A stretch of DNA of 64,000 bases from assembly GCA_030041335.1 (NCBI GenBank), contig JASHOB010000215.1:1-64000 (forward strand), written 5' to 3'. This document shows positions 13,882 through 63,632 of the stretch, in pieces. The position numbers and the translations under genes are program-made. The notes beneath the pieces are model-generated. The model was not told the DNA's origin, made no database searches, and saw only the letters and a list, made by a program, of their open reading frames with translations. The stretch comes from Alphaproteobacteria bacterium. GTDB taxonomy: Bacteria > Pseudomonadota > Alphaproteobacteria > ATCC43930 > CGMCC-115725. The first letter of the stretch is position 1, and every line of letters starts with the position of its first letter.

Positions 13882-15663
13882 ATGAGCGAAACCCGCAAGC
13901 TCGCCGCGATTCTGGCCGCGGATGTTGCTGGGTATAGTCGCCTCACGGCGACTGACGAAGAACGCACCATAGCGCGGTTGCGTGGTCTCCGAACTGACCT
14001 GATCGATCCTGCCATTTCGGTTCACAACGGCCACGTCGTGAAGCGCACCGGCGACGGCATTCTCATCGAATTTCGCAGTGTTGTTGACGCCGTGCGGTGT
14101 TCTATCGAAGTGCAGAGCGGCATGGTTGAGCGCAATCGCGGCCTACCTCCCGAACGACAGATTTGGTTTCGCACCGGTATTCACCTCGGCGACGTGATCG
14201 AGGAAGCAGACGGCGACCTAATGGGCGACGGCGTTAACATCGCGTCGCGTCTCGAAAACATCTGCGAGCCCGGCGCGATTTGCCTTTCCGAACAAGCCTA
14301 TTGGCAGGTCAAGTCCCGGCTCGACCTTGCGGTCAGTGATCTGGGCAACAAGGAACTCAAGAACATTCCCGAATCTGTGCATGTGTTTTCGTTGGAGGTC
14401 GGGAAGCCGGCGCAGGCAAAAACCGTCGAGTCATCACAACCATCGCAGCCACTTGGCCCACCGCGTTTGTCCATCGTGGTTATTCCCTTTGCAAACATCG
14501 GCGGCGACCCAGAGCAGGAATACTTCGTCGACGGCGTGGCGGAGAGCCTGACCACCGATCTGTCGCGTATCGCCGGGTCGTTCGTCATCGCGCGCAACAC
14601 CGCGTTCACGTACAAGGGCAAGCCGGTCGATGTGAAACAGATCGGCCGCGAGCTGAACGTCCGCTACGTGCTCGAAGGCTCGGTGCAACGAGGTGGCAAT
14701 CGCCTGCGCGTCAATGTCCAGCTCATCGACGCCGAAACCGGCAACCACCTCTGGGCCGAACGCTTCGACAAGCCTGTCGCCGACCTCTTCGACATGCAGG
14801 ACGAGATCGTCGCGCGCTTAGCCAATCAACTCGGCACACAATTAGTCGAGGCTGAGGCGCGGCGCGCCCAGCACGCGCCGCACCCCGACTCGATGGATCT
14901 TTATTTTCAGGGGCAGGCTTGGGCCAATAAGGGGATGAGGCCGGAGTATATGGCACAGGCGCGCAGCTTCTTCGAACGCGCCCTGACGCTCGATCCGGGC
15001 AATGTCGAAGCGCTCACGGCCATGGCATGGATCGATGCGAATTTTGGCCAATTGATTGGCGACAAGAAGACAAAGACAACACGCCTCAAGGCAGCCGAGG
15101 TGGCGCTGATCAAGGTTCTCTCAATAGCTCCTGAGCACGCCGCAGCCCACCTTTGTATGGGCCTGGTCCAAGTCTGGACCGACCGCGCGGCCCAAAGCAT
15201 TGACGAATTTGGACGAGCGCTGGCGTTGAATAGAAACTTGGCTGATGCCCACGGCGCCATGGGTTCGGCCAAGACTTACCTTGGTCGCAGTGAAGACAGC
15301 GACGCCCATTTGATTGAGGCCATCCGCCTCTCTCCGCGCGATACGCGCGCCTATATCTGGAGCACCATTGCCGCCCGCTCCAAGCTACTTCTTGGCCAGG
15401 ATAACGAAGCGGTCGTGCGGTGCGTTCGAGCGATCGAGGCCAACCGGAATCATCCGCTCGTCCATTTCTATCTCGCCGCCGCCTTGGCGCATCTCGGCAG
15501 ACTAGACGAAGCGCGGGGAGCAACCGAGGCCGGGCTAGCACTTGATCCAACATTCACGATCTCTCGCTACCGGGCCAACGCGCCAAGCAGCAACGAGACC
15601 TATCTCGCGCAAACCAAACGCATCTATGAAGGCATGCGCATGGCCGGAGTACCGGAGGGATGA
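13882..15663 (+). CDS. Class III adenylate/guanylate cyclase with TolB-like and TPR regions (paralog 1)
   Basis: 593 residues. The N-terminal cyclase homology domain (about 1-170) has both metal-binding aspartates (D14 in AADVAGYS, D58 in KRTGDG), the purine-recognising Lys54, the substrate-loop Asp in MGDGVNIA, and the transition-state Asn/Arg pair in NIASRLE, so it should convert ATP to cAMP, or possibly GTP to cGMP. A TolB/FlgO-like domain follows (about 195-325, PFANIGGDPEQEYFVDG). TPR repeats fill 330-590. No membrane segment is visible, so a cytosolic protein is likely. Its stop overlaps a further ATG as ATGA, where a relic of another cyclase begins. Two paralogs lie at 28.7 and 34.3 kb. 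Confidence 0.9.
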   Translation: MSETRKLAAILAADVAGYSRLTATDEERTIARLRGLRTDLIDPAISVHNGHVVKRTGDGILIEFRSVVDAVRCSIEVQSGMVERNRGLPPERQIWFRTGIHLGDVIEEADGDLMGDGVNIASRLENICEPGAICLSEQAYWQVKSRLDLAVSDLGNKELKNIPESVHVFSLEVGKPAQAKTVESSQPSQPLGPPRLSIVVIPFANIGGDPEQEYFVDGVAESLTTDLSRIAGSFVIARNTAFTYKGKPVDVKQIGRELNVRYVLEGSVQRGGNRLRVNVQLIDAETGNHLWAERFDKPVADLFDMQDEIVARLANQLGTQLVEAEARRAQHAPHPDSMDLYFQGQAWANKGMRPEYMAQARSFFERALTLDPGNVEALTAMAWIDANFGQLIGDKKTKTTRLKAAEVALIKVLSIAPEHAAAHLCMGLVQVWTDRAAQSIDEFGRALALNRNLADAHGAMGSAKTYLGRSEDSDAHLIEAIRLSPRDTRAYIWSTIAARSKLLLGQDNEAVVRCVRAIEANRNHPLVHFYLAAALAHLGRLDEARGATEAGLALDPTFTISRYRANAPSSNETYLAQTKRIYEGMRMAGVPEG

Positions 15664-28723: not shown

Positions 28724-30496
28724 TTATTCGGGCAACCCCGTTTTTTGCAAGCCGCTTGCCAGCGAATTCAGTAATTCCGGTCGCATGATGGCTGAAAAAT
28801 ATTCTGTGAAAGGACCGACTCGGAAGGTCGGCTCGAGTTCTAGAACGCGGCGCGAGACTGAATTGACCTCGTCGCTGCGACCGGCCAAAGCGAGCGCTGC
28901 CGCCAGGAAAATATGGATCACGCTAAAGCCCGGATTCGTCTGAGCTGCTTCGAATAGGAGCGCCGACGCTTCAGCGTACCGTCCCTCACGCAGGCGGACA
29001 AAACCGCGAGCGGAATGCGACAAGAAACTCAGCGGGTCGAATGGACTTAGCCGCAAGGCTCGTACTGCATAGTCTTCGGCAATCGCGGCGTCGCCGCTCA
29101 TGCTGTTTATATGTGCGCCCCAAAATAGCGCAGTCGCGCAGGAGCCATTTAGCAATAACGCGCGGGCGACCGCACCGGAAGCGGCCTGAAAATCACGTCC
29201 CAGATGCAGAAGCGCGACGGTCGCGACGCTGAGTGCCGTCGGATCCTCGGTGCCGTGTGTCAGCGCCAAGCGAGCATGGCGCACGCCCGCAATCGCGTCT
29301 GCCTCGTTAAACCCGCCGCGCGTTACACGAATTTCCAAACCCCAAGACAGGTAGGCATGGGCAACGGCATAGTTGGGATCGAGCGTAAGAGCCTGTTCGA
29401 GATACCCAATACCGACACTGGCGTCCGCCGGCATTGCCGATGCGAAATGTGGTAGGGCACGCAGATAGAGGTCATAAGCATCGAGGCTGTCTGGCCGCCG
29501 GCGCCGCGCCCGTTCAATCTCAGCGCGGCGGACATTGGGCTCGATCACGCCGACAACCGTTTCTGTAATCCTGTCCTGGAGGTCGAATACATCTTCGAGC
29601 GCCCCATCGAACTTGTCGGCCCAAAGATGGGTGCCGTTTTCGGCTTCGACCAACTGTCCCGTGATGCGAACGCGATTGCCCGCCTTGCGCACGCTGCCTT
29701 CCAGCACATAGCGCACACCAAGTTCTCGACCCACTTGGCGGATGTCGGGCGACTTGCCCTTGTACGCAAAACTCGAATTGCGGGCTACCACGAACAGCCA
29801 GTTAATCCGCGATAAACCGGTGATGACGTCCTCAACCATGCCATCGGCGAAGTATTCCTGCTCAGGATCGCCGCTCATATTCTGAAATGGCAAGACCACG
29901 ATCGATGGCTTATCGGGGAGCGCCATTCTCATCTTAGGCGAATCCGGCGCGGCTGGCTTTCCTGACCCAGGCTTGCTGACCTCAAGCGCCAAGACATGTA
30001 CCGGTTCCGGAATGTTCTTGAGTTCTTTGCGACCGAGGTCGGTAACCGCGAGATCGAGCCGAGACCGAACGTGCCGATAGGCATCTTCGGAGAGACAAAT
30101 AGCGCCGGGTTCGCAAATGCCTTCGAGCCGCGCGGCGATGTTAACGCCGTCCCCCATCAGGTCGCCGTCGTGCTCGACGATCACGTCGCCGAGATGAATG
30201 CCGACGCGGAATTCGATTCGTTTCTCGGGCGCGACATTGGCGTTCCGCGGAATCATGCCCCGCTGTAGCTCGAGCGCCGCACGCACTGCATCGACGATGC
30301 TGGGAAATTCGCTCAGCCGGCCGTCGCCCGTGGTCTTGAAGGTACGACCGTTATGGGCAGCGATCACCGGATCGATCAGCTCATGCCGCAACGCGCGCAG
30401 ACGCGACACTGTGCCTTCCTCGTCCGCCGCAGAAAGACGGCTAAAGCCGACGACATCAGCAGCCAATATAGCCGCAAGCTTTCGGGTCTCACTCAT
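28724..30496 (-). CDS. Class III adenylate/guanylate cyclase with TolB-like and TPR regions (paralog 2)
   Basis: 590 residues. Domain order as in paralog 1: cyclase (1-170), TolB/FlgO-like (about 195-320, PFQNMSGDPEQEYFADG) and TPR repeats to the end (K-T-G-L-P-E). Metal ligands D14 and D58 and Lys54 (F-K-T-T-G-D-G) are intact, and the Asn/Arg pair is in NIAARLE, so activity is expected. The middle of the TPR region differs clearly from paralogs 1 and 3, suggesting different input partners. The conserved upstream 12-mer is GCATGTTAAAGT (30539 to 30528). It stands alone, about 100 nt from the frameshifted ICMT gene. Confidence 0.9.
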   Translation of the reverse strand: MSETRKLAAILAADVVGFSRLSAADEEGTVSRLRALRHELIDPVIAAHNGRTFKTTGDGRLSEFPSIVDAVRAALELQRGMIPRNANVAPEKRIEFRVGIHLGDVIVEHDGDLMGDGVNIAARLEGICEPGAICLSEDAYRHVRSRLDLAVTDLGRKELKNIPEPVHVLALEVSKPGSGKPAAPDSPKMRMALPDKPSIVVLPFQNMSGDPEQEYFADGMVEDVITGLSRINWLFVVARNSSFAYKGKSPDIRQVGRELGVRYVLEGSVRKAGNRVRITGQLVEAENGTHLWADKFDGALEDVFDLQDRITETVVGVIEPNVRRAEIERARRRRPDSLDAYDLYLRALPHFASAMPADASVGIGYLEQALTLDPNYAVAHAYLSWGLEIRVTRGGFNEADAIAGVRHARLALTHGTEDPTALSVATVALLHLGRDFQAASGAVARALLLNGSCATALFWGAHINSMSGDAAIAEDYAVRALRLSPFDPLSFLSHSARGFVRLREGRYAEASALLFEAAQTNPGFSVIHIFLAAALALAGRSDEVNSVSRRVLELEPTFRVGPFTEYFSAIMRPELLNSLASGLQKTGLPE

Positions 30497-30984: not shown

Positions 30985-31215
30985 TTACGCTTTACGGACC
31001 AATGCAGCTCGTCCGTCATGCGTTGCCACCTGGAGTTTTGCATGCAGGTTGGCGAGCGTCACCGTCTCAAATTCACGGGGCACATCGAGAACCTGCACGC
31101 GCTCTCCCGACTTCGGAACATAGCTCAACGTGGCGCGAACCGGACCACCCGGAGCCGGTTCGCCGAACAGCGACAGGATGTTTCCGTGAGCGTCGCTAAC
31201 GACAGTTAATCGCAT
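30985..31215 (-). CDS. Small hypothetical protein, second gene of a CRP-box operon
   Basis: 76 residues. GGAGA lies 7 nt ahead of the ATG at 31215, and the gene starts 20 nt after the 31236-31502 gene, so the two form an operon. It begins with a beta-strand-like M-R-L-T-V-V-S-D-A-H-G-N-I and continues with alternating hydrophobic residues (V-Q-V-L-D-V-P-R-E-F). No membrane segment and no known domain are seen. Confidence 0.55.
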   Translation of the reverse strand: MRLTVVSDAHGNILSLFGEPAPGGPVRATLSYVPKSGERVQVLDVPREFETVTLANLHAKLQVATHDGRAALVRKA

Positions 31216-31235: not shown

Positions 31236-31502
31236 TCAGTCAAACCAAGACGTCTGAATATTGTAGGTAACGACAAACTTGGTGTTGTTGGTGACTGAGA
31301 AGTTGAAGCCGTAGGTTCCGTTTCCCTCGTTGAAGTTCACTCCGTTCTCGTCGTAATTCAGCGTCACTCCTGGAGGCGATGTCGGCTGGGGTTGCGTAAT
31401 CGTGATACCCTGCCAACCGTTGTCATCCCAAGTGAAAGTCCATCCCTGCGTTTGGCCGGGAGAGATCGTGATCCCGCTGCCGCCGGGGAAAATAGTTGAC
31501 AT
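31236..31502 (-). CDS. Small Asn/Gly/Thr-rich beta protein, first gene of a CRP-box operon
   Basis: 88 residues with ribosome binding site AAGGAG 9 nt ahead of the ATG. The composition (Asn, Thr, Gly, Trp, few Lys/Arg) and alternating pattern, for example G-W-T-F-T-W-D-D-N-G-W-Q-G-I-T-I-T, suggest a small extracellular-type beta-sandwich, yet no signal peptide is present. No family recognised. A perfect CRP-type site lies about 114 nt upstream of the start (centre near 31616.5). Style and regulation resemble the G1 peptidase locus at 37 kb, so the genes may serve one programme. Confidence 0.6.
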   Translation of the reverse strand: MSTIFPGGSGITISPGQTQGWTFTWDDNGWQGITITQPQPTSPPGVTLNYDENGVNFNEGNGTYGFNFSVTNNTKFVVTYNIQTSWFD

Positions 31503-31607
31503 GTCACGCGCTCCTTCCGCTTCAGCTAATTTCTGGTGGTAGGGTCGGCGCTAGCCGGCCCTAAGATCGCTGATGCGAAGCATCTTACGTTGAGCGCGCG
31601 GCGACTT

Positions 31608-31625
31608 GTGTGATCTGCGTCACAC
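31608..31625. promoter_or_regulatory. CRP-type site upstream of the small-protein operon
   Basis: GTGTGA-TCTGCG-TCACAC contains the perfect CRP half-sites TGTGA and TCACA with the correct 6-nt spacer, and the symmetry extends to 6-bp arms. It is the nearest regulatory site upstream of the 31502 start, with about 105 nt between site and ATG. Confidence 0.6.
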
Positions 31626-32018
31626 TGCATTAGTTTGTTGGCGCTCTTGATTTCATTCAGGCCGTCTCAGCCAAACGGCGCGATACTGGTCCAATTGCGA
31701 TGGACGGCTGCGATGCCATCTTGGTTCTTGTGAGGCACCGCACGCGTCAGTTCTGCCTCGCACCAACGATCCGAACCATGAGGAAGCGTCGTGACCAAGT
31801 GACTGACAACATCGCGACGATAGCATCGATGGTCGGGTGCCGCCCCAGAGATTGCACCTCTGCCCGCGAGCCGGCTTCGTCACGGCCAACCGACGAAGCG
31901 CGGACTTTGTCCCGAGACAGATTGCCGAGATTTCACAGCGGCTTAGCTAACCGCGTGGCAGATGGCGGCTTAACCGCGCATGGAGGCCTGACGCACGGTC
32001 GCGCATTGTGGCGCTAAC
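31626..32018. other. Intergenic stretch, nothing recognised
   Basis: This region lies between the CRP-type site and the terminator of the methyltransferase gene. No gene, RNA or repeat is supported. Confidence 0.35.
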
Positions 32019-32038
32019 AAAAAAGGCCGTCCCCGGCC
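32019..32038 (-). terminator. Rho-independent terminator after the methyltransferase gene
   Basis: On the minus strand the stem GGCCG/CGGCC encloses a GGGA tetraloop and is followed by six T residues. It is about 97 nt past the stop of the methyltransferase gene at 32135-32938. Confidence 0.6.
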
Positions 32039-32134
32039 AGATCGTCGAGCGGTTCGCGATGGAGGCGGCGGCAGCCGCGCCTTTACCGCTCTTTCTAAAC
32101 ATCACCGATGGTCGATAGTCGCGTCGCCGCACCT

Positions 32135-32938
32135 TTACGGCGCCCTACCCCGCACAAAGTAGAGAGCCGTGTAGCTGCATGTGTCAGCACGGTCCAGGTA
32201 CCCAAGCAAGTCACCGACGAAGTGATCTGCTTTCGCCTCTCCGCCAAGAATCTGGGCTATGTACGACCGCGCTGCCGCTAGCTGCTCGACCCAGTTTCGC
32301 TTTCGATCCGGGTCTATCGCACCAAGAATTGTGAAAAGACGATCCGGTTCGAAATCGACCTTGATGTCCACGAGTCCGGCTGCTTTGAACATCGGTGCCA
32401 TCTTGCGGCCGACGAATGGATCCACCAGACCCCGAAATACCCGGTCCAACACTGGCTGAAGCACAGGGTCTTCGGGCCAATGCGTCACCGCAAAACCATC
32501 GAAGTTCGCACATACCACGAACGCGCCGGCCTTGCTTACTCGGCGAAATTCGGCAATCGCCAAGTGCGGTTCCTTCACCCACTGCAACACGTATTTTGAC
32601 CACACGATGTCGAAAGAAGCGTCTGGGAACGGTAGGTGAAAAATATCCCCTTGTTGAAATTCAACATTTGTCAGCCCGTCCAGCACCGCTCTTTCGTGCG
32701 CAAAGGCCACGTAGTCATGCCGCACGTCTACCCCAACGATCCGCGCGGTCGGGTGCGCTGAAGCCAGCAATCGAGCCATCGATCCCGAGCCGCATCCGGC
32801 GTCGAGGATGCGCGCGTGAGGAGGAACCGATAGGAATGAAAGATGGTCCGGCAACCGGGCAAGAATCGCCTGCCGCTCCAGACGCTCGCATTCCGTGGCG
32901 CTGTGAATGGCGTAGGGTCGAGAAAGCTCGCTCTCCAT
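32135..32938 (-). CDS. Class I SAM-dependent methyltransferase
   Basis: 267 residues. Motif I is ILDAGCGSGSMARLL (about 44-58), the acidic post-I residue is in GVDVRHDYV, and FDIVWSKYVLQWV forms the motif near 108-120. The N-terminus Y-A-I-H-S-A-T-E-C-E-R-L resembles methyltransferases that act on small molecules in modification clusters. The gene lies 38 nt downstream of the substrate-binding protein gene on the same strand, so co-transcription is likely, but that gives no substrate. Confidence 0.87.
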   Translation of the reverse strand: MESELSRPYAIHSATECERLERQAILARLPDHLSFLSVPPHARILDAGCGSGSMARLLASAHPTARIVGVDVRHDYVAFAHERAVLDGLTNVEFQQGDIFHLPFPDASFDIVWSKYVLQWVKEPHLAIAEFRRVSKAGAFVVCANFDGFAVTHWPEDPVLQPVLDRVFRGLVDPFVGRKMAPMFKAAGLVDIKVDFEPDRLFTILGAIDPDRKRNWVEQLAAARSYIAQILGGEAKADHFVGDLLGYLDRADTCSYTALYFVRGRAP

Positions 32939-32976
32939 CTGTCCTCAGTGCATCCAGGCGAGCTTCGTGATGGGTG

Positions 32977-34182
32977 TCAGCTACCCGCCACCGAAATGAT
33001 TTCGCCGAACGGGGCCTGGTGTTGCCCATCGAACCGGTACATTTGCATCTGGCCGATGGGGTAGTAATTGGTGGGGCTCGTGTTCAAGGTCACTCCCGGC
33101 AAAAGATTGTCGAGTTCTACGCTTTTGAGATTGGTTGCCTGCCTCATGATGTTTTCGCGACTTAGGTCAGTCCCGCAGCGCTTGAGGACCTGGAGAACCG
33201 ACTGGGCAAAACCGTACCCCGCAAAATAGCCAGCGTCGGCCTTGTCGGCAGACGGCAGATATTTGTTCATGAAGGCGACCCATCGCTTCATGCCAGGATC
33301 GTCATTCCAGCGTGGATCAGTCTGGTCCTTGTACGGCAAGGCTGTAACAACCCCGATTGCGTTCTCGACGCCGGCAGGCCGATAGACGGAACCGATCGAG
33401 GCCGACGGCAGACAGATGATTCGCAATGGCTTCCAGCCGATAGCGGCGACCTTGCGTATTGTCTGCGCGGCAAACTTTGGTGTCGCCGCGATCACCAAGA
33501 CGTCGGCACCTGAAGCCTGCAGCTGGAGGACCTGCGAATCGACCGTGGGGTCGCTCACTTCATAGGTAGCTTCTTTGACGACTAACTGCCCGTAGCGATC
33601 ACCGAACACGTCCCTGAGACCATTGACGTAATCCCTGCCAAAGTCATCGTTTTGATAAAGCAGCGCGATCTTCGCGTCAGGCTTTTCCTTCAGTAGGTAT
33701 TTTCCGTAAATGCGTGCCTCGATGCGATAGCTGGGGCCGAATGCCATCGTCCACGGGAAATGCTGATAGTCGCCAAACTTGTGCGCTCCAGTGGCGATGA
33801 GGAGCTGCGGGATTCTCCGCTCGTTAAGGTACTTCTCTGTCGCACTGTTGGTGGGCGTTCCCAGCGAACCGAAAATGAAGGCGACATTCTCTTGCTCGAT
33901 GAGCTTACGCGTCTGTTCGAGTGTTTTCGGCGGGCTATAACCGTCGTCGAGCGAAATTAGGTTGATCCTGCGCCCATTGACGCCGCCATTGTCGTTGACC
34001 ATGGCGAAAAAGGCCATCTCGGCCTTGCCGACCGCGGAATAGGCGGATGCCGGACCGCTGTAGGGCATTGTCTGGCCAATTTTGATTTCGCTGTCGGTGA
34101 TGCCGGGCGCGTTTTCCGCAAGAGCGGCCCCGGATGAGAGTGCGAAGCTCGCGAGGCCAGCGACGATGAGATTCTTCCACAC
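32977..34182 (-). CDS. ABC transporter substrate-binding protein, branched-chain amino acid (LivJ) type
   Basis: 401 residues from GTG 34182, chosen because AGGGAGG sits 4 nt upstream; reading from 34224 would place extra residues before the signal peptide. The signal peptide is about 1-22 (ending A-A-L-A-E). The mature protein shows the periplasmic binding fold type I with I-K-I-G-Q-T-M-P-Y-S-G-P and the G-R-R-I-N-L-I-S-L-D-D-G-Y motif. Relatives bind branched amino acids, amides or aromatic acids. No permease or ATPase genes are adjacent, so this is an orphan receptor. Confidence 0.88.
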   Translation of the reverse strand: MWKNLIVAGLASFALSSGAALAENAPGITDSEIKIGQTMPYSGPASAYSAVGKAEMAFFAMVNDNGGVNGRRINLISLDDGYSPPKTLEQTRKLIEQENVAFIFGSLGTPTNSATEKYLNERRIPQLLIATGAHKFGDYQHFPWTMAFGPSYRIEARIYGKYLLKEKPDAKIALLYQNDDFGRDYVNGLRDVFGDRYGQLVVKEATYEVSDPTVDSQVLQLQASGADVLVIAATPKFAAQTIRKVAAIGWKPLRIICLPSASIGSVYRPAGVENAIGVVTALPYKDQTDPRWNDDPGMKRWVAFMNKYLPSADKADAGYFAGYGFAQSVLQVLKRCGTDLSRENIMRQATNLKSVELDNLLPGVTLNTSPTNYYPIGQMQMYRFDGQHQAPFGEIISVAGS

Positions 34183-34287
34183 GATTTCCTCCCTCTTTTC
34201 AGTTCCCGATGGTTGAACCTCCATTGAATGAATTACAGCGACATCTCTTGGTGGTGGTTCCGGGGCACCCTGTTTTTACGCGACCGT

Positions 34288-36039
34288 TCATCCCTCCGGC
34301 ACTCCGGCTTTGCGCATGCCGTCGATTTGACGCTCACGCTGCGCCAGATAGTTTGGGTTGTCGCCCCATTCGCCGGCGCGATATCGCCGAATCGTAAAGC
34401 GCGGATCAAGCGTGAGCCCGACCTGTACCGCAGCCTCCGCTTCGTCGATCTGACCTAGCCGCGCCAAGGCGGCGGCAAGGAGAAAATGTGAGAGGGGAAT
34501 ATTCCGGTTGATCTCAATGACATGCCGGTACCACACGACCGCTTCCGCCTCGGCGCCGAGAGCGAATTTGGCGAAGGCGATACAGTGAGTCCAGACATAG
34601 AGGAGCGTGTCACGCGGGCTAAGCCGGATCGCTTCCTGGATGTGGCTTTCGGTTTCCTCCGGGCGGCCAACGACCGCCTTGGCGAAACCGATAAAGGCAT
34701 GTGCGTTCGCTAGATTGCGGTCCAGCGCCAGGGCCCGTTCGAATTCAGCGATGCCCTGGTCAGCGCGCTTGGTGAACACAAATACATTCCCCAACCAGAA
34801 ATGCGCCTGAGCGTTATTGGGTGCCAAGGACAAAGTCCGAGTCAGCCACGCCTCCGCCGCGGTCAAGCGCGATAGTTGGTTATCTGTCAGGTGAGCGCCG
34901 CCGACGATGCAATCCGTCGCCGCGATGCCGACCGATGCACTAATATTGCCAGGGTCGAGCACCAGGGCGCGTTCGAAGAAGTCGCGCGCCCGTCCCAGAA
35001 GGTCGGATGTCGTGCCCCTGTTCAGCCAAGTTTGGCCCCGGAAATAGAGGTCCATCGAATCCGCATTCAGCGACTTTTCAGCGCGGCGCGCTTCGAAAGC
35101 CACCACCTCCGCGCCCAATTGGTTGGCGAGACGGGCGATGATCTCGTCCTGCATATCGAACAGGTCGCCAATGGCCTTGTCGAAGCGCTCCGCCCAGAGA
35201 TGATCGCCGCTCATGGCGTCGACCAACTGCACATTCACCCAAAGGCGATTGCCGCTTCGCTGCGCTGATCCTTCGAGCACGTAACGCACATTCAGCTCGC
35301 GTCCGATCTGCTTCACGTCGGTGGGCTTGCCCCTGTAGGTGAATGCGGTGTTGCGCGCGATCACGAACGCGTCGCTGATACGCGATAGATCGGCGGTTAG
35401 GCTCTCGGTCACGCCATCCACAAAATATTCCTGCTCAGGATCCCCGCCGATATTGGCGAAGGGGAGGACCACGATGGAAAGGTGTGGTGGTTCAGCCGGT
35501 CTCGCGTTCCCGGGGCGGCTAACCTCAATCGCATACACATGGACCGTCGCGGCGGTGTTCTTCAGCTCCTTGTTGCCGAGATCCTTAACAGGGAGATCGA
35601 GCCTCGATTTGACCTGCCGATAGGCGTCCTCGGACAGGCAAATCGCCCCGGGCTCGCAAATCTTTTCCAGACGCGAAGCAATGTTGACGCCGTCGCCCAT
35701 TAAGTCACCGTCCGCTTCCTCGATCACATCGCCGAGGTGAATACCGGCGCGGAACAGAATTTGCCGTTCTGGCGGAAGTCCGGCATTGCGCTCGAGCATG
35801 CCATTCTGCACTTCGATCGAACACCGAACGGCGTCAACGACACTGCGGAATTGGATCAAAATGGCGTCGCCGGTTCGATTTACGACGTGGCCATGGTGTA
35901 CCGAGACGGCCGGGTCGATAAGGTCAGCTCTGAGACGGCGCAACCGTACTATGGTGCGCTCTTCGTCGGTTGCCGTGAGGCAACGACACCCAGCAACATC
36001 CGCAGCCAGAATCGCGGCGAGCTTGCGAGTTTCGCTCAT
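34288..36039 (-). CDS. Class III cyclase with TolB-like and TPR regions (paralog 3, altered active site)
   Basis: 583 residues, closest to paralog 1 in all three regions. Metal ligands D14 and D58 and the NIASRLE motif are kept. The lysine expected to recognise the purine is Asn54 (V-N-R-T-G-D instead of V-K-R-T-G-D), and the normally conserved A-G-Y-S-R after D14 reads A-G-C-R-C. By analogy with other class III cyclases these changes should reduce or alter activity, perhaps leaving a sensor or a heterodimer partner. The TolB-like and TPR regions are intact. The upstream element is ACATGTTAAAGT (36078 to 36067). Confidence 0.88.
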   Translation of the reverse strand: MSETRKLAAILAADVAGCRCLTATDEERTIVRLRRLRADLIDPAVSVHHGHVVNRTGDAILIQFRSVVDAVRCSIEVQNGMLERNAGLPPERQILFRAGIHLGDVIEEADGDLMGDGVNIASRLEKICEPGAICLSEDAYRQVKSRLDLPVKDLGNKELKNTAATVHVYAIEVSRPGNARPAEPPHLSIVVLPFANIGGDPEQEYFVDGVTESLTADLSRISDAFVIARNTAFTYRGKPTDVKQIGRELNVRYVLEGSAQRSGNRLWVNVQLVDAMSGDHLWAERFDKAIGDLFDMQDEIIARLANQLGAEVVAFEARRAEKSLNADSMDLYFRGQTWLNRGTTSDLLGRARDFFERALVLDPGNISASVGIAATDCIVGGAHLTDNQLSRLTAAEAWLTRTLSLAPNNAQAHFWLGNVFVFTKRADQGIAEFERALALDRNLANAHAFIGFAKAVVGRPEETESHIQEAIRLSPRDTLLYVWTHCIAFAKFALGAEAEAVVWYRHVIEINRNIPLSHFLLAAALARLGQIDEAEAAVQVGLTLDPRFTIRRYRAGEWGDNPNYLAQRERQIDGMRKAGVPEG

Positions 36040-36066
36040 TGCCCGTGATCCCCACCCTCCAAAACA

Positions 36067-36078
36067 ACTTTAACATGT
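36067..36078 (-). promoter_or_regulatory. Conserved 12-mer upstream of cyclase gene 3
   Basis: ACATGTTAAAGT on the minus strand ends 27 nt before the ATG at 36039. It overlaps a 10-bp palindrome TAACATGTTA at 36071-36080. Confidence 0.4.
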
Positions 36079-36243
36079 TATCTGAGCGGGGTTAATCGGG
36101 TGGGGAGCGGCGTCCGTTAATTCCCGGGTGTCTTTTTTGAGCGTTTGCGCCGCTTGGGCTTCGCGTCGCCCTCCGCATAGCGGAACGGCCGGCGCTATTC
36201 CGCTCCCCTGTGCGTGGCCTGCGCCCGTCGATAAGCGCAGCGC

Positions 36244-37215
36244 TCAGGCGCTACCTTCCCAGACCACAAGGCCAACGGTGGGTGAGGCGATGAACGCCTG
36301 AGCCAGGATGGCTCCCTTGTTGCCGGTGATGTTTGACGTGACGCCATCGGGCGAGAAGTTGAAGGCCTTCGCCTGTGTGCTGGCGGTGGCGTTCGTGAAC
36401 ACCGTCGGCGAGAAATCGGGCAGGTCCTTTGAAATCCCCTCGACTGCCCAGATCGCGCGCGTGCCCACCGAAGTAATGTCCTTCCCAGGTGCGGGAATGC
36501 CAACCGTCGTCGCCTGGTTGGTCCGGTAGTTCAGGAATGTGGCGGAGCCGTTCGTCGCACCGGACCACGGTCCGCAGACCAGGCACGACACAAGGTCGCC
36601 CGGTTCGACGGCGAAATTCTTCACCTGGACAGGGGGCGACTTGTACTTTGTCGTAAACCATTCGGTCCACACCCAGTAGTTGACATTGGTACCTGTGATT
36701 GTTGCCGCGGTCCCGGCTTGCAGGAGCTCGTAAGAATCCGGGTCGTTACCGTCAAGACCGACCCAGAAACCGACGGTCAAGGGAGTGGACGGATCACCGG
36801 GGACCGGGATGATTGTCGGCACTGTCCACTCCGCGAAGACGGTGTTCGCCGGCGGGGTGAGGCCAAGTGCCGCGACTGAGACAGTGACGCTCGCCCAGCC
36901 CGACGGGCTGAAATCGGAATTCAGATGTTGCATCGGATCGCGATTGGCCATGACAGGGTCGAAGGCCAGCTCAGCCTGGGTCATGCGCAGGTTCGGCACA
37001 CGCCGCATCACCTTCTGCCAGAGCGCCGACAGCATAGGCTCCTTCGCCGGATCCGGGCGGCGGGGGAAGCCATGCACCGTGAGGGCGCGCGCGTCCGCGG
37101 TGCGCGGATCGAATCCTGCAGGCGGCGGGCGGAAGGTCTGGAACTTGCTGACCTGCTCCTGGAGCTGGTCGCGCTGATCGGTCGGCTGCGAGGCTGGCTC
37201 GGTCACGATGGCCAT
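36244..37215 (-). CDS. G1 (glutamic) peptidase, eqolisin family
   Basis: 323 residues from ATG 37215, preceded by GGGAGAG; an in-frame extension to 37308 runs into the CRP site and is rejected. The fold is the beta-sandwich of scytalidoglutamic peptidase. Key motifs: FWVGLDG (150-156), catalytic Gln166 in S-Y-E-L-L-Q-A-G, the WTEWF strand, AVEPGD, and catalytic Glu259 in IWAVEG. The 100-residue N-terminal part may be a propeptide. No standard signal peptide is seen. Such enzymes are known mainly from fungi and are active at acid pH; bacterial members are fewer. A perfect CRP site lies 66-89 nt upstream of the start. Confidence 0.85.
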   Translation of the reverse strand: MAIVTEPASQPTDQRDQLQEQVSKFQTFRPPPAGFDPRTADARALTVHGFPRRPDPAKEPMLSALWQKVMRRVPNLRMTQAELAFDPVMANRDPMQHLNSDFSPSGWASVTVSVAALGLTPPANTVFAEWTVPTIIPVPGDPSTPLTVGFWVGLDGNDPDSYELLQAGTAATITGTNVNYWVWTEWFTTKYKSPPVQVKNFAVEPGDLVSCLVCGPWSGATNGSATFLNYRTNQATTVGIPAPGKDITSVGTRAIWAVEGISKDLPDFSPTVFTNATASTQAKAFNFSPDGVTSNITGNKGAILAQAFIASPTVGLVVWEGSA

Positions 37216-37319
37216 GGCGTGCTCTCCCGTTCGATCCCGCGATTTGCGGTTGCTCAGATTTTGGGCCTCACCCGGTTTTCTGTGTGTGAAATAGCTCACA
37301 CACAACAAGGCTTTTCAGG
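37201..37319 (-). repeat. 119-bp regulatory repeat, copy A (G1 peptidase promoter)
   Basis: This copy aligns without gaps to 38661-38779 (offset 1460), 99 of 119 identical positions by my count (about 83%). It contains the first five codons (M-A-I-V-T), the ribosome binding site GGGAGAG, the conserved CACCCGGTTTTC block and the CRP site. Confidence 0.85.
37281..37304. promoter_or_regulatory. CRP-type site of the G1 peptidase gene
   Basis: TGTGTGTGA-AATAGC-TCACACACA is a perfect 9-bp-arm palindrome with the CRP spacing; the core is TGTGA-N6-TCACA. Its centre lies about 77 nt upstream of the ATG at 37215. The core half-sites are unchanged in the diverged duplicate at 38745-38760. Confidence 0.7.
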
Positions 37320-37616
37320 CCAGAGCAAACGCTCCAGAGGCGCGACTGCTGCGGCGCTCGCCAGATGGCGTCGACAGTCTGGACCAAAACCGTAAAACGG
37401 CGGCCGGTTTCGGATCTGAGATACTGGCCCACAGGCCCCGGCCGTGGCGGGGAAACGAACGAACATGTATTTCGCGGCGAACTAATCTTGTCATAGCGTG
37501 CCTCAAGCTTTTGAAGCATACGGGAGCGAGGCGCCCCCCCGTATCACTTTGGCAAAATGCGCTGCATCTGGCAGCCCCAAGACGCGGCGACGGCAACCGG
37601 TCGCCGGAACGAGGGC
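37320..37616. other. Intergenic stretch, nothing recognised
   Basis: Spacer between copy A of the regulatory repeat and the small gene behind tauE. No gene or RNA is supported. Confidence 0.35.
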
Positions 37617-37805
37617 TCAGGTCGTTCCGACGATTTCAAAGCCTTGCGGAACCCGGACCTCTTGCGCGCTTCGAAAAGCACCCAGCAGCGATACGATAAT
37701 CGCGAGGACGATTGCCACCGCCTTCAAGCCGTCATTGCACCGGCCGCAGAACCGGTCGATCGGTTCGGCAAGGCGCCGCCATCGTCCCGTCAACGGGGGC
37801 TTCAT
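37617..37805 (-). CDS. 62-residue single-pass membrane protein coupled to tauE
   Basis: ATG 37805 overlaps the TauE/SafE stop as ATGA. The product starts M-K-P-P-L-T-G-R-W-R-R, has one membrane helix (about 27-45, LKAVAIVLAIIVSLLGAF) and a C-x-x-C pair (C20, C23) just before it, followed by a polar tail. Coupling suggests an accessory factor of the exporter; the cysteines could bind metal or be redox-active. No family recognised. Confidence 0.6.
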   Translation of the reverse strand: MKPPLTGRWRRLAEPIDRFCGRCNDGLKAVAIVLAIIVSLLGAFRSAQEVRVPQGFEIVGTT

Positions 37806-38599
37806 AGGCTCGCGCGCAGCATCGTGACGCCGGTAATCAGCAGCACGACGGCGATTACCCGGCTGAGGTCGGCGGCCGAGGTCCGCTGCGCCAGGCGGAC
37901 CCCAAACCAAGCTGCAGCCGCCTGCGCCGGCGCTATCGACGCCCACACCGCGAGATTGATCGAACCCAGTTCGGCTGGGGATCCTGCCCCGGGCGCAAGT
38001 GCGGCGACGACGGTGGCTGGAAGCGCGACCGCTACCCCGACGCTGGCGGCTCGGCCGACGCTCCTGTGCATTGGCACGCCGGAAAGAGTCATGACGATAT
38101 TCGTCAGAATCCCGCCGCCGACTCCGGCAAGACCGGAGCATAAACCGATCGTACCCCCGGCGAGGCTACGTAGGGGTCCGGTTGGCGGCGCTGCCGCGAC
38201 CGCGGCAAACCGGCCCGGGACGCCGAATCGCGCCGCGAAAATCAGGGAGACAAGGCCGAAAAGCCCAGTCATCCAACTGCCGCGAAGATGAGGCGCGGCA
38301 AGCTGCGCGGCGACGACACCTGCGGCAATCCCGGGTCCCCATTCTCGGAGAAAGCCGATGTCGGCATTTCCGGCGCGCCAATGCCCGATCGAAGAGACGA
38401 CCGCCGCCGGCAGGATCGCCGCCAATGACGTGCCGACCGCTATGTGCGCGGCGTGATCAGCCGCGGTGCCCGTGATAATCAGGCCGTAATAGACGACCGG
38501 AACAATGACGACTCCCCCGCCAATCCCGACCAGACCGGCAAGCAGACCCGCCACGGTCCCCGAGAGCGCCCCCAGAGCCACCAACCCAACCGAGTCCAT
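37802..38599 (-). CDS. TauE/SafE-family sulfite/sulfonate exporter-like permease
   Basis: 265 residues with about eight membrane helices and the family's two internal repeats (G-L-L-A-G-L-V-G-I-G-G-G near 17-28 and C-S-G-L-A-G-V-G-G-G-I near 154-164). Relatives export sulfite, sulfoacetate or other organosulfur anions. A sulfite-oxidase-like gene follows the same orientation 619 nt upstream, which supports a sulfur role. Copy B of the 119-bp regulatory repeat, including its CRP site, ends about 60 nt ahead of the start, so this gene may have captured the G1 peptidase promoter. Confidence 0.87.
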   Translation of the reverse strand: MDSVGLVALGALSGTVAGLLAGLVGIGGGVVIVPVVYYGLIITGTAADHAAHIAVGTSLAAILPAAVVSSIGHWRAGNADIGFLREWGPGIAAGVVAAQLAAPHLRGSWMTGLFGLVSLIFAARFGVPGRFAAVAAAPPTGPLRSLAGGTIGLCSGLAGVGGGILTNIVMTLSGVPMHRSVGRAASVGVAVALPATVVAALAPGAGSPAELGSINLAVWASIAPAQAAAAWFGVRLAQRTSAADLSRVIAVVLLITGVTMLRASL

Positions 38600-38636
38600 T
38601 GCGATGATCCCCAGCTGCAGAGGTGAGAAAAAGCGC

Positions 38637-38675
38637 TCAGAGACGGACCTGGCCCGGCTTGGTCACTATCGCCAT
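38637..38675 (-). pseudogene. 12-codon remnant of the G1 peptidase start ahead of tauE
   Basis: In copy B of the repeat the start codon and ribosome binding site GGGAGAG are kept, and the frame reads M-A-I-V-T-K-P-G-Q-V-R-L before TGA, against M-A-I-V-T-E-P-A in the intact gene. It stops 37 nt before the tauE start and could still be translated as a leader. Confidence 0.55.
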
Positions 38676-38779
38676 GACGTGCTCTCCCGTTCGATCCCGC
38701 CATTTGCGGCGAGCGCGATTCTGAGGCTCACCCGGTTTTCTGGGTGTGAAGTAGCTCACACACCATGACGCTTTTCAGG
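38661..38779 (-). repeat. 119-bp regulatory repeat, copy B (ahead of tauE)
   Basis: Second copy of the segment at 37201-37319. Differences cluster between the ribosome binding site and the CACCCGGTTTTC block and at the far end; the CRP half-sites and ribosome binding site are spared. Confidence 0.85.
38744..38761. promoter_or_regulatory. CRP-type site ahead of tauE
   Basis: GTGTGA-AGTAGC-TCACAC keeps the perfect core TGTGA-N6-TCACA although the outer arms of the palindrome in copy A are partly lost. Its centre is about 154 nt upstream of the tauE ATG and 78 nt upstream of the remnant start codon. Confidence 0.6.
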
Positions 38780-62152: not shown

Positions 62153-62204
62153 CTAATCATTGCACCCCGCGGTGCGCCTCATTAGAGGTGGGCGGGGGGC
62201 GATC

Positions 62205-63632
62205 ATGCGGCTGGCGCTGCGCATATTTCTGGTCGTGATTTTCGGGGCCGCCTACTGGCAGGCGGTCCGCGGCTACGGCTTCGGTCTTAACGCCGAATAC
62301 GAGACGATTGCCAAGGACGTCGCCGGCACCGGCTTTTGGCTGGCGCTGGCGCTGATCGCGACGGAACTGCTGCGCGTCTTCGTCATGCGGCGGGCGCGAC
62401 GCGAAGGGTTGGCGAGCCAGATGCCGCGCCTGCTCTTCGACATCGCAAGCATCCTGGCTTTCTTCTGCGCCGGCATCCTGATCGTTTCGCAGGTGTTCGG
62501 GCTGGAACTGACCGGCCTGCTGTTCACGTCCGGCATCATCGCGGCGGCGGCCGGTTTCGCTTTGCAGCCAACGGCGACTGATCTGATCGCCGGCATCTCC
62601 CTCAATTTTCGCGAAGGCACGGTGAAGATCGGCGATTGGGTCCAGGTCGCCAACGGCGTCGTCGGCAAGGTGTCGCAAATCACGTGGAGCGACACGCATC
62701 TCGTCACCTTGGACGATCGCATGATCGTGGTGCGCAACAGCAAGCTCGTCGAGCTGCAGTTGATGAACTACAATGCGCCGCGCCGCCCTTATCAGAACAA
62801 GCTGCGGATCACCGTCGGTTATGAGGCGCCGCCTGAACGGGTCGCCGCGATTCTGACAACGGCGATGAAGGCGGTGCCCAATCTGCTTGCCGATCCGGAA
62901 CCCTATGTGATCATCGAGGAGTTCGCCGATAACGGCGTGCCCTATTCCATGTATTTTCATGTGCCCGACTATCCCGAAGCGCCGTTCATCACTCATCAGG
63001 TCGCGATCAACGCACTCAGATTCCTCGACCAGGCCGGTTTCGCACCTGCCTATCCGCGGCGCGAAATATTCGATGGGCACGAGGCGCGGGCCGCACGCGG
63101 CATCGAGCGGCGAATTGACATCGCGGCGATTCTGCGGCGAGTGCCGTTGTTCGATTCTTTCGGCCCTGAGGAAATTGGTGAATTGGCGGGCGGCGTCGCA
63201 CTGCTGCAATGGAAACCCGGTGCCATCGTGGTACGCGAAGGTGACGAAGGCAAATCCTTGTTCGTCGTGGTCTCGGGCCTGCTCGACGTGTTCAAGCAGA
63301 TGGAGGGTGGCGAACAGCGCAAGGTCGGGCTGCTGGCACCCGGCCAAGTCTTCGGAGAGTGGTCGTTGCTGACCGGCGCCGCACGCAGCGCCACCGTGAC
63401 CGCAGCCGTGGACACGGGACTGATCGAAATCGACAAGGAGCGATTGGAGCCAATTCTGACCCGCTATCCCGAAACCCTGGCGGAGCTGAGCCGCATCGAG
63501 GCCGAACGGTCGGCCAGCAACGTCAACGTCATGGCGTTTACGCCGGCGGAGCGCCAAGAGATCGCGAGCGTCGGCATGGCGTCGTTCTTGCGCGCGAAAA
63601 TCATGCGCTTTTTCGCAACATCGGCGCCTTGA
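62205..63632 (+). CDS. MscS-family channel with C-terminal cyclic-nucleotide-binding domain
   Basis: 475 residues from ATG 62205; a TTG at 62160 would add 15. Three to four N-terminal membrane helices are followed by the pore helix and MscS beta domain (G-F-A-L-Q-P-T-A-T-D-L-I-A-G at 117-130, G-D-W-V-Q-V-A-N). Residues 302-430 form a cNMP domain whose phosphate-binding cassette is F-G-E-W-S-L-L-T-G-A-A-R-S-A-T-V (383-398), with E385 and R394 for the cyclic nucleotide. It should be a cyclic-nucleotide-gated, mechanosensitive-like channel (bCNG) and a possible effector of the cyclases at 13.9-36 kb. Confidence 0.93.
   Translation: MRLALRIFLVVIFGAAYWQAVRGYGFGLNAEYETIAKDVAGTGFWLALALIATELLRVFVMRRARREGLASQMPRLLFDIASILAFFCAGILIVSQVFGLELTGLLFTSGIIAAAAGFALQPTATDLIAGISLNFREGTVKIGDWVQVANGVVGKVSQITWSDTHLVTLDDRMIVVRNSKLVELQLMNYNAPRRPYQNKLRITVGYEAPPERVAAILTTAMKAVPNLLADPEPYVIIEEFADNGVPYSMYFHVPDYPEAPFITHQVAINALRFLDQAGFAPAYPRREIFDGHEARAARGIERRIDIAAILRRVPLFDSFGPEEIGELAGGVALLQWKPGAIVVREGDEGKSLFVVVSGLLDVFKQMEGGEQRKVGLLAPGQVFGEWSLLTGAARSATVTAAVDTGLIEIDKERLEPILTRYPETLAELSRIEAERSASNVNVMAFTPAERQEIASVGMASFLRAKIMRFFATSAP

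Follow-up and report, generated by a model that had tools for sequence, protein, structure and literature searches.

What does a perfect TGTGA-N6-TCACA palindrome do when it occurs three times within a few kilobases, and which protein reads it? The case comes from a 64-kb window (the whole stretch of DNA that was analysed) of an alphaproteobacterial genome of 5.17 Mb in 262 contigs. The first-pass annotation had taken the three palindromes for CRP-type sites in promoter position and placed them in a local cAMP programme together with neighbouring adenylate cyclases. Our preferred explanation, to which we give a probability of about 0.8 as a whole, is that they are operators of one CRP-family activator encoded on another contig (C51:11432-12136) and belong to a regulon that would extend through the genome and the family.

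Candidate operators and their genes

The three palindromes are where the first-pass annotation placed them, and the pattern search found no others in the window. Dinucleotide shuffles of the window gave a mean of 0.02 perfect palindromes and never reached three. Each palindrome lies upstream of a minus-strand gene: that of an 88-aa small protein (ATG at 31502), a Peptidase_A4/G1 gene (ATG at 37215), and tauE, whose ATG at 38599 stands behind a 12-codon leader ORF that starts at 38675. By sequence and placement they look like candidate CRP-type operators at the usual position for activation by CRP, which agrees with the earlier assignment. The features of the three putative promoters are as follows:

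30985..31215, minus strand: small protein of 76 aa, encoded downstream of the 88-aa protein in its operon
31236..31502, minus strand: orphan small protein of 88 aa, encoded by the first of two genes in an operon; no Pfam family passes the cut-off
31582..31587, minus strand: -10-like hexamer TAAGAT, 21 nt from the TCACA of site 1, predicted TSS near 31575 (spacing read from the sequence, promoter function putative)
31609..31624, no strand assigned: CRP-type site 1, TGTGACGCAGATCACA in minus-strand reading (pattern search)
36244..37215, minus strand: Peptidase_A4 gene (glutamic peptidase G1, eqolisin; PF01828, 2.4e-25)
37258..37263, minus strand: -10-like hexamer CAAAAT, 21 nt from the TCACA of site 2, predicted TSS near 37251
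37285..37300, no strand assigned: CRP-type site 2, TGTGAGCTATTTCACA in minus-strand reading (pattern search)
37802..38599, minus strand: TauE/SafE-family membrane protein, tauE (PF01925, 2.5e-36)
38718..38723, minus strand: -10-like hexamer CAGAAT, 21 nt from the TCACA of site 3, predicted TSS near 38711
38745..38760, no strand assigned: CRP-type site 3, TGTGAGCTACTTCACA in minus-strand reading (pattern search)

No relatives of the 88-aa protein were found in the 60 genomes searched, and G1 peptidases are present in four of 61 genomes. The peptidase of the window has the conserved Q166 and reads AIWAVE where a relative reads AEWIVE, which leaves the catalytic Glu of its Gln/Glu dyad ambiguous; it has no PDB match at 0.1. 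For the G1 peptidase, conservation of the site in relatives is mixed. No CRP-type site is present at the two loci that match best, whereas a divergent pair of G1-peptidase-like genes in genome G021 (L026 769, G021:C423) has a one-mismatch site, TGTGAGCCGCCACACA, with CATAAT 21 nt on, although the peptidase gene concerned is more distant from that of the window than the two best matches. Co-regulation of the G1 peptidase may thus be older than the window genome, a suggestion from a single case that is not proof.

The motif is not confined to the window. The window genome contains 14 perfect sites versus one for the reversed pattern, and 55 versus 20 when up to one mismatch is allowed, so much of the excess consists of perfect sites. 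The enrichment above chance that a CRP-type reading presupposes is therefore present genome-wide, and across the family (37 genomes) there are 204 sites versus eight for the reversed control. Of the 14 perfect sites, only one (L005) falls within a gene that is confidently coding, that of a response regulator; the rest are at or outside gene edges, as judged by ORF reading rather than annotation. The eleven sites outside the window are distributed over ten other contigs, near unrelated genes that include a sodium/proton exchanger, an MlaC-type protein, a dCache cyclase, and small orphan proteins. The site next to the dCache sensor adenylate cyclase (L006, C100:1506-1521) is directly ahead of that gene, lacks a class II -10, and could possibly form a feedback loop. 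Judging from these counts, the motif is the mark of a putative genome-wide and family-wide regulon.

A candidate CRP protein and its likely ligand

Three proteins of the window genome have an HTH_Crp_2 domain above the Pfam cut-off. The C51 protein is the only one with an SRExxNK recognition helix (LSRETTNKQL); the other two have TETVSR helices, which we take to be of the FixK/FNR type. It combines a cNMP-binding domain (PF00027, 9.6e-25) with HTH_Crp_2 (PF13545, 2e-16), and it possesses the R-E of the recognition helix and the E/R/S and T-T residues of the nucleotide pocket, whose roles are established for E. coli CRP. With few exceptions, both the RExxNK helix and the FGEIALLDG..R(S/T)A pocket are conserved in its orthologues in the family. 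The CRP-type regulator proposed in the first pass thus has a concrete candidate, with a matching helix and a conserved pocket.

Presence of the protein and abundance of the motif go together. Among family genomes at least 90% complete, with the window genome left out and a close CRP orthologue defined by E below 1e-30, the 11 carriers have 3-25 sites (mean 8.8) and the 10 genomes without an orthologue have 0-4 (mean 0.8; one-sided p = 1.6e-4, which like the other p values given here treats related sites and genomes as independent and is optimistic). G029 (15 sites), G018 (nine sites), G035, and G023 have many sites yet no detected orthologue; all four are 77-82% complete, and crp may just not have been assembled in them. 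G012 is complete, has no detected orthologue, and has four sites.

The surroundings of crp also carry sites. In the window genome a perfect site (L030 1468, C51:11399-11414) follows the crp stop codon at a distance of 17 bp, and no gene is obvious beyond it. G014, G017, G022, and G034 likewise have a site shortly after crp, which in all of these but G014 precedes a gene resembling helix-turn-helix or response-regulator genes. In G004 and G014 a placement suggestive of autoregulation is seen, with perfect sites 108-117 bp upstream of crp. A scan of genome contigs with the single C51 protein found no relative; an alignment-based scan found many, mostly in Bradyrhizobium and alphaproteobacterial MAGs, and the nearest named carriers are alphaproteobacterial MAGs, Bradyrhizobium, and a Skermanella. 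The named CRP loci (367 kb) contain only eight perfect sites, two of them no more than 120 bp ahead of the crp match, and we rejected crp autoregulation as a general rule.

The best PDB match of the C51 protein is M. tuberculosis CRP (Rv3676; 3d0s, 1e-31), which shares the SRET.NK helix and belongs to a different phylum, with distant full-length similarity and other regulon content. Its operator type is the same as that found here (PMC5449483). E. coli CRP has the identical 16-bp consensus, but the C51 protein is closer to the mycobacterial protein, has N-K where the E. coli helix has G-R, and the targets found here are not sugar-catabolic genes. Two alphaproteobacterial proteins offer closer company by lineage. 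CgrA of Rhodospirillum centenum is a CRP-type protein with TGTGA-N6-TCACA as its binding site and belongs to a cGMP pathway (PMC4681086); compared by description rather than by sequence, it resembles the C51 protein in its operator and differs in that pathway. Clr of Sinorhizobium meliloti is a cNMP-dependent activator of class I- and class II-like promoters (PMC10127613) and, unlike the C51 protein, has the consensus GTNNCNNNNGNNAC and a diverged recognition helix (cluster G). The consensus GTNNCNNNNGNNAC calls for C at position 6 together with G at position 11, a combination absent from all three window sites, and position 6 is C in only 18% of 65 sites; membership in a Clr (cluster G) regulon was rejected.

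The ligand was approached through the cyclases. About 40 cyclase domains are encoded at scattered places in the window genome. A Lys of the adenylate type accompanied by Asp or Thr occurs in 25 of the 38 domains examined, and the guanylate-type Glu in none, so cAMP is likely to be the signal bound by the C51 protein. The class III cyclase located beside crp, in divergent orientation, also has its adenylate-type residues intact (Lys/Thr). The window contributes three class III cyclases:

13882..15663, plus strand: cyclase paralogue with the full adenylate-cyclase residue set
28724..30496, minus strand: cyclase with TPR repeats and the full adenylate-cyclase residue set
34288..36039, minus strand: cyclase with TPR repeats and Asn in place of the adenine-specifying Lys

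These had been described as three adenylate cyclase paralogues, which is right for the number of cyclase genes, but the full adenylate residue set is found in two only; the cyclase at 34288-36039 may differ in substrate or activity. The proposal that cAMP is the signal remains plausible, with its role as ligand deduced from cyclase residues. The same operators and the same protein could instead respond to cGMP or to both nucleotides. CgrA binds the identical palindrome in a cGMP-triggered pathway of cyst development (PMC4681086), Clr responds to both nucleotides (PMC10127613), and both proteins are alphaproteobacterial. Set against the adenylate-type residues of most of the cyclase domains examined, including the one adjoining crp (K/T), and the lack of the guanylate-type Glu in all 38, we consider this alternative unlikely.

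Promoter architecture

In E. coli, 21-22 nt between site and -10 corresponds to CRP centred near -41.5, the class II arrangement, and this is the distance found here. All three window sites have a -10-like hexamer at 21 nt. The spacing idea was formed on these promoters and then tested on other sites: a hexamer at 21 or 22 nt is present at 22 of 52 sites in relatives versus about 1.8 by chance, and in a hold-out set of sites fetched later at 23 of 74 versus 2.6 expected (p ~3e-15). No -10 peak was found at the class I distance in the sites tested, hold-out included. Among the window genome's own sites, six of 13 have the hexamer, and three of the ten outside the hypothesis-forming set (p 0.009). 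A peak at a single, predicted distance in two site sets is hard to explain otherwise, and is the strongest evidence for a role of the motif as a class II activator site.

We infer that a CRP dimer, most likely loaded with cAMP, would bind TGTGA-N6-TCACA centred near -41.5 and activate a sigma-70-type RNA polymerase at a class II promoter, composed of the site, 21-22 nt, and the -10 hexamer. The predicted targets in the window, which would be switched on, are the operon of the 88-aa and 76-aa proteins, the G1 peptidase gene, and tauE. CRP-type activation at the three sites appears well supported. Alternatively, the sites could be repressor operators or have no effect, with the -10 spacing at the window promoters a coincidence. 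A palindrome that overlaps the -35 region can block polymerase, the hexamer is present at only six of the 13 own sites, and the hexamers of the window promoters match TATAAT at four of six positions. The spacing peak coincides exactly with the class II distance of E. coli and reappeared in the hold-out set, which makes repression or inertness quite improbable, and we continue to favour activation.

A duplicated cassette and the reach of the proposed regulon

Sites 2 and 3 are not independent observations, because both lie within one 124-bp segment that is present twice in the window, the copies being 86-91% identical. The block common to the copies begins some 20 bp ahead of the CRP site, takes in the leader, and reaches the first codons:

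37196..37319, minus strand: promoter/leader cassette, copy 1, at the G1 peptidase (segment comparison)
38637..38675, minus strand: relic leader ORF MAIVTKPGQVRL*, 12 codons, remainder of the peptidase start codon region
38656..38779, minus strand: copy 2 of the promoter/leader cassette, in front of tauE (86-91% identity to copy 1)

A third copy is located on another contig (L220, C142:38038-38145). Behind it comes a 38-codon ORF resembling part of the peptidase N-terminus; none of 2000 shuffles scored as high as the match of its KEPVLPALLRRVLQQVPN to KEPMLSALWQKVMRRVPN of the peptidase. Another perfect CRP site is found 227 bp from this copy. The cassette copies, the relic ORF, and the remnant on C142 together indicate the copying of a single peptidase promoter. 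Of the resulting copies, one drives tauE or could do so, and another heads a probable peptidase remnant; tauE thus seems to have been brought under CRP control through duplication of the peptidase promoter, 5' leader, and start codon.

The duplication also bears on the local cAMP programme of the first-pass annotation, in which neighbouring cyclases would act on neighbouring CRP promoters. Three of the 14 perfect sites fall within 7.15 kb (p 0.002), and the window has three cyclases in 64 kb where 0.5 are expected (p 0.014). Once the duplicated cassette is merged, the clustering of sites is lost (p 0.19); cAMP is diffusible, the approximately 40 cyclase domains are scattered through the genome, and the substrate residue is altered in one window cyclase. 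A local programme is accordingly very doubtful, and the genome-wide regulon takes its place. The cNMP-gated channel that had been drawn into the programme does have a cyclic-nucleotide-binding domain, but is of the MscS type, with nothing linking it to the promoters:

62160..63632, plus strand: MscS-type mechanosensitive channel with a C-terminal cyclic-nucleotide-binding domain

The probability that the palindromes arose by chance is practically negligible in view of the window shuffles, the genome-wide and family-wide reversed controls, and the hold-out spacing.

Control of genes by CRP is a known mechanism, here in a little-studied bacterium, and the general picture of CRP regulation is unchanged. 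The analysis predicts a CRP regulon with exact start sites in a family represented here mostly by incomplete genomes, and offers a clear example of promoter capture, in which a transporter gene is preceded by a copied peptidase promoter. In its operator and its class II spacing the family apparently follows the E. coli type, and in this it departs from rhizobial Clr, which has been studied better. More tentatively, this uncharacterised alphaproteobacterial family might have a CRP regulon that is mostly class II and consists largely of orphan small, secreted, and envelope proteins, in which the G1 peptidase promoter and leader act as a portable cassette that recruits genes such as tauE.
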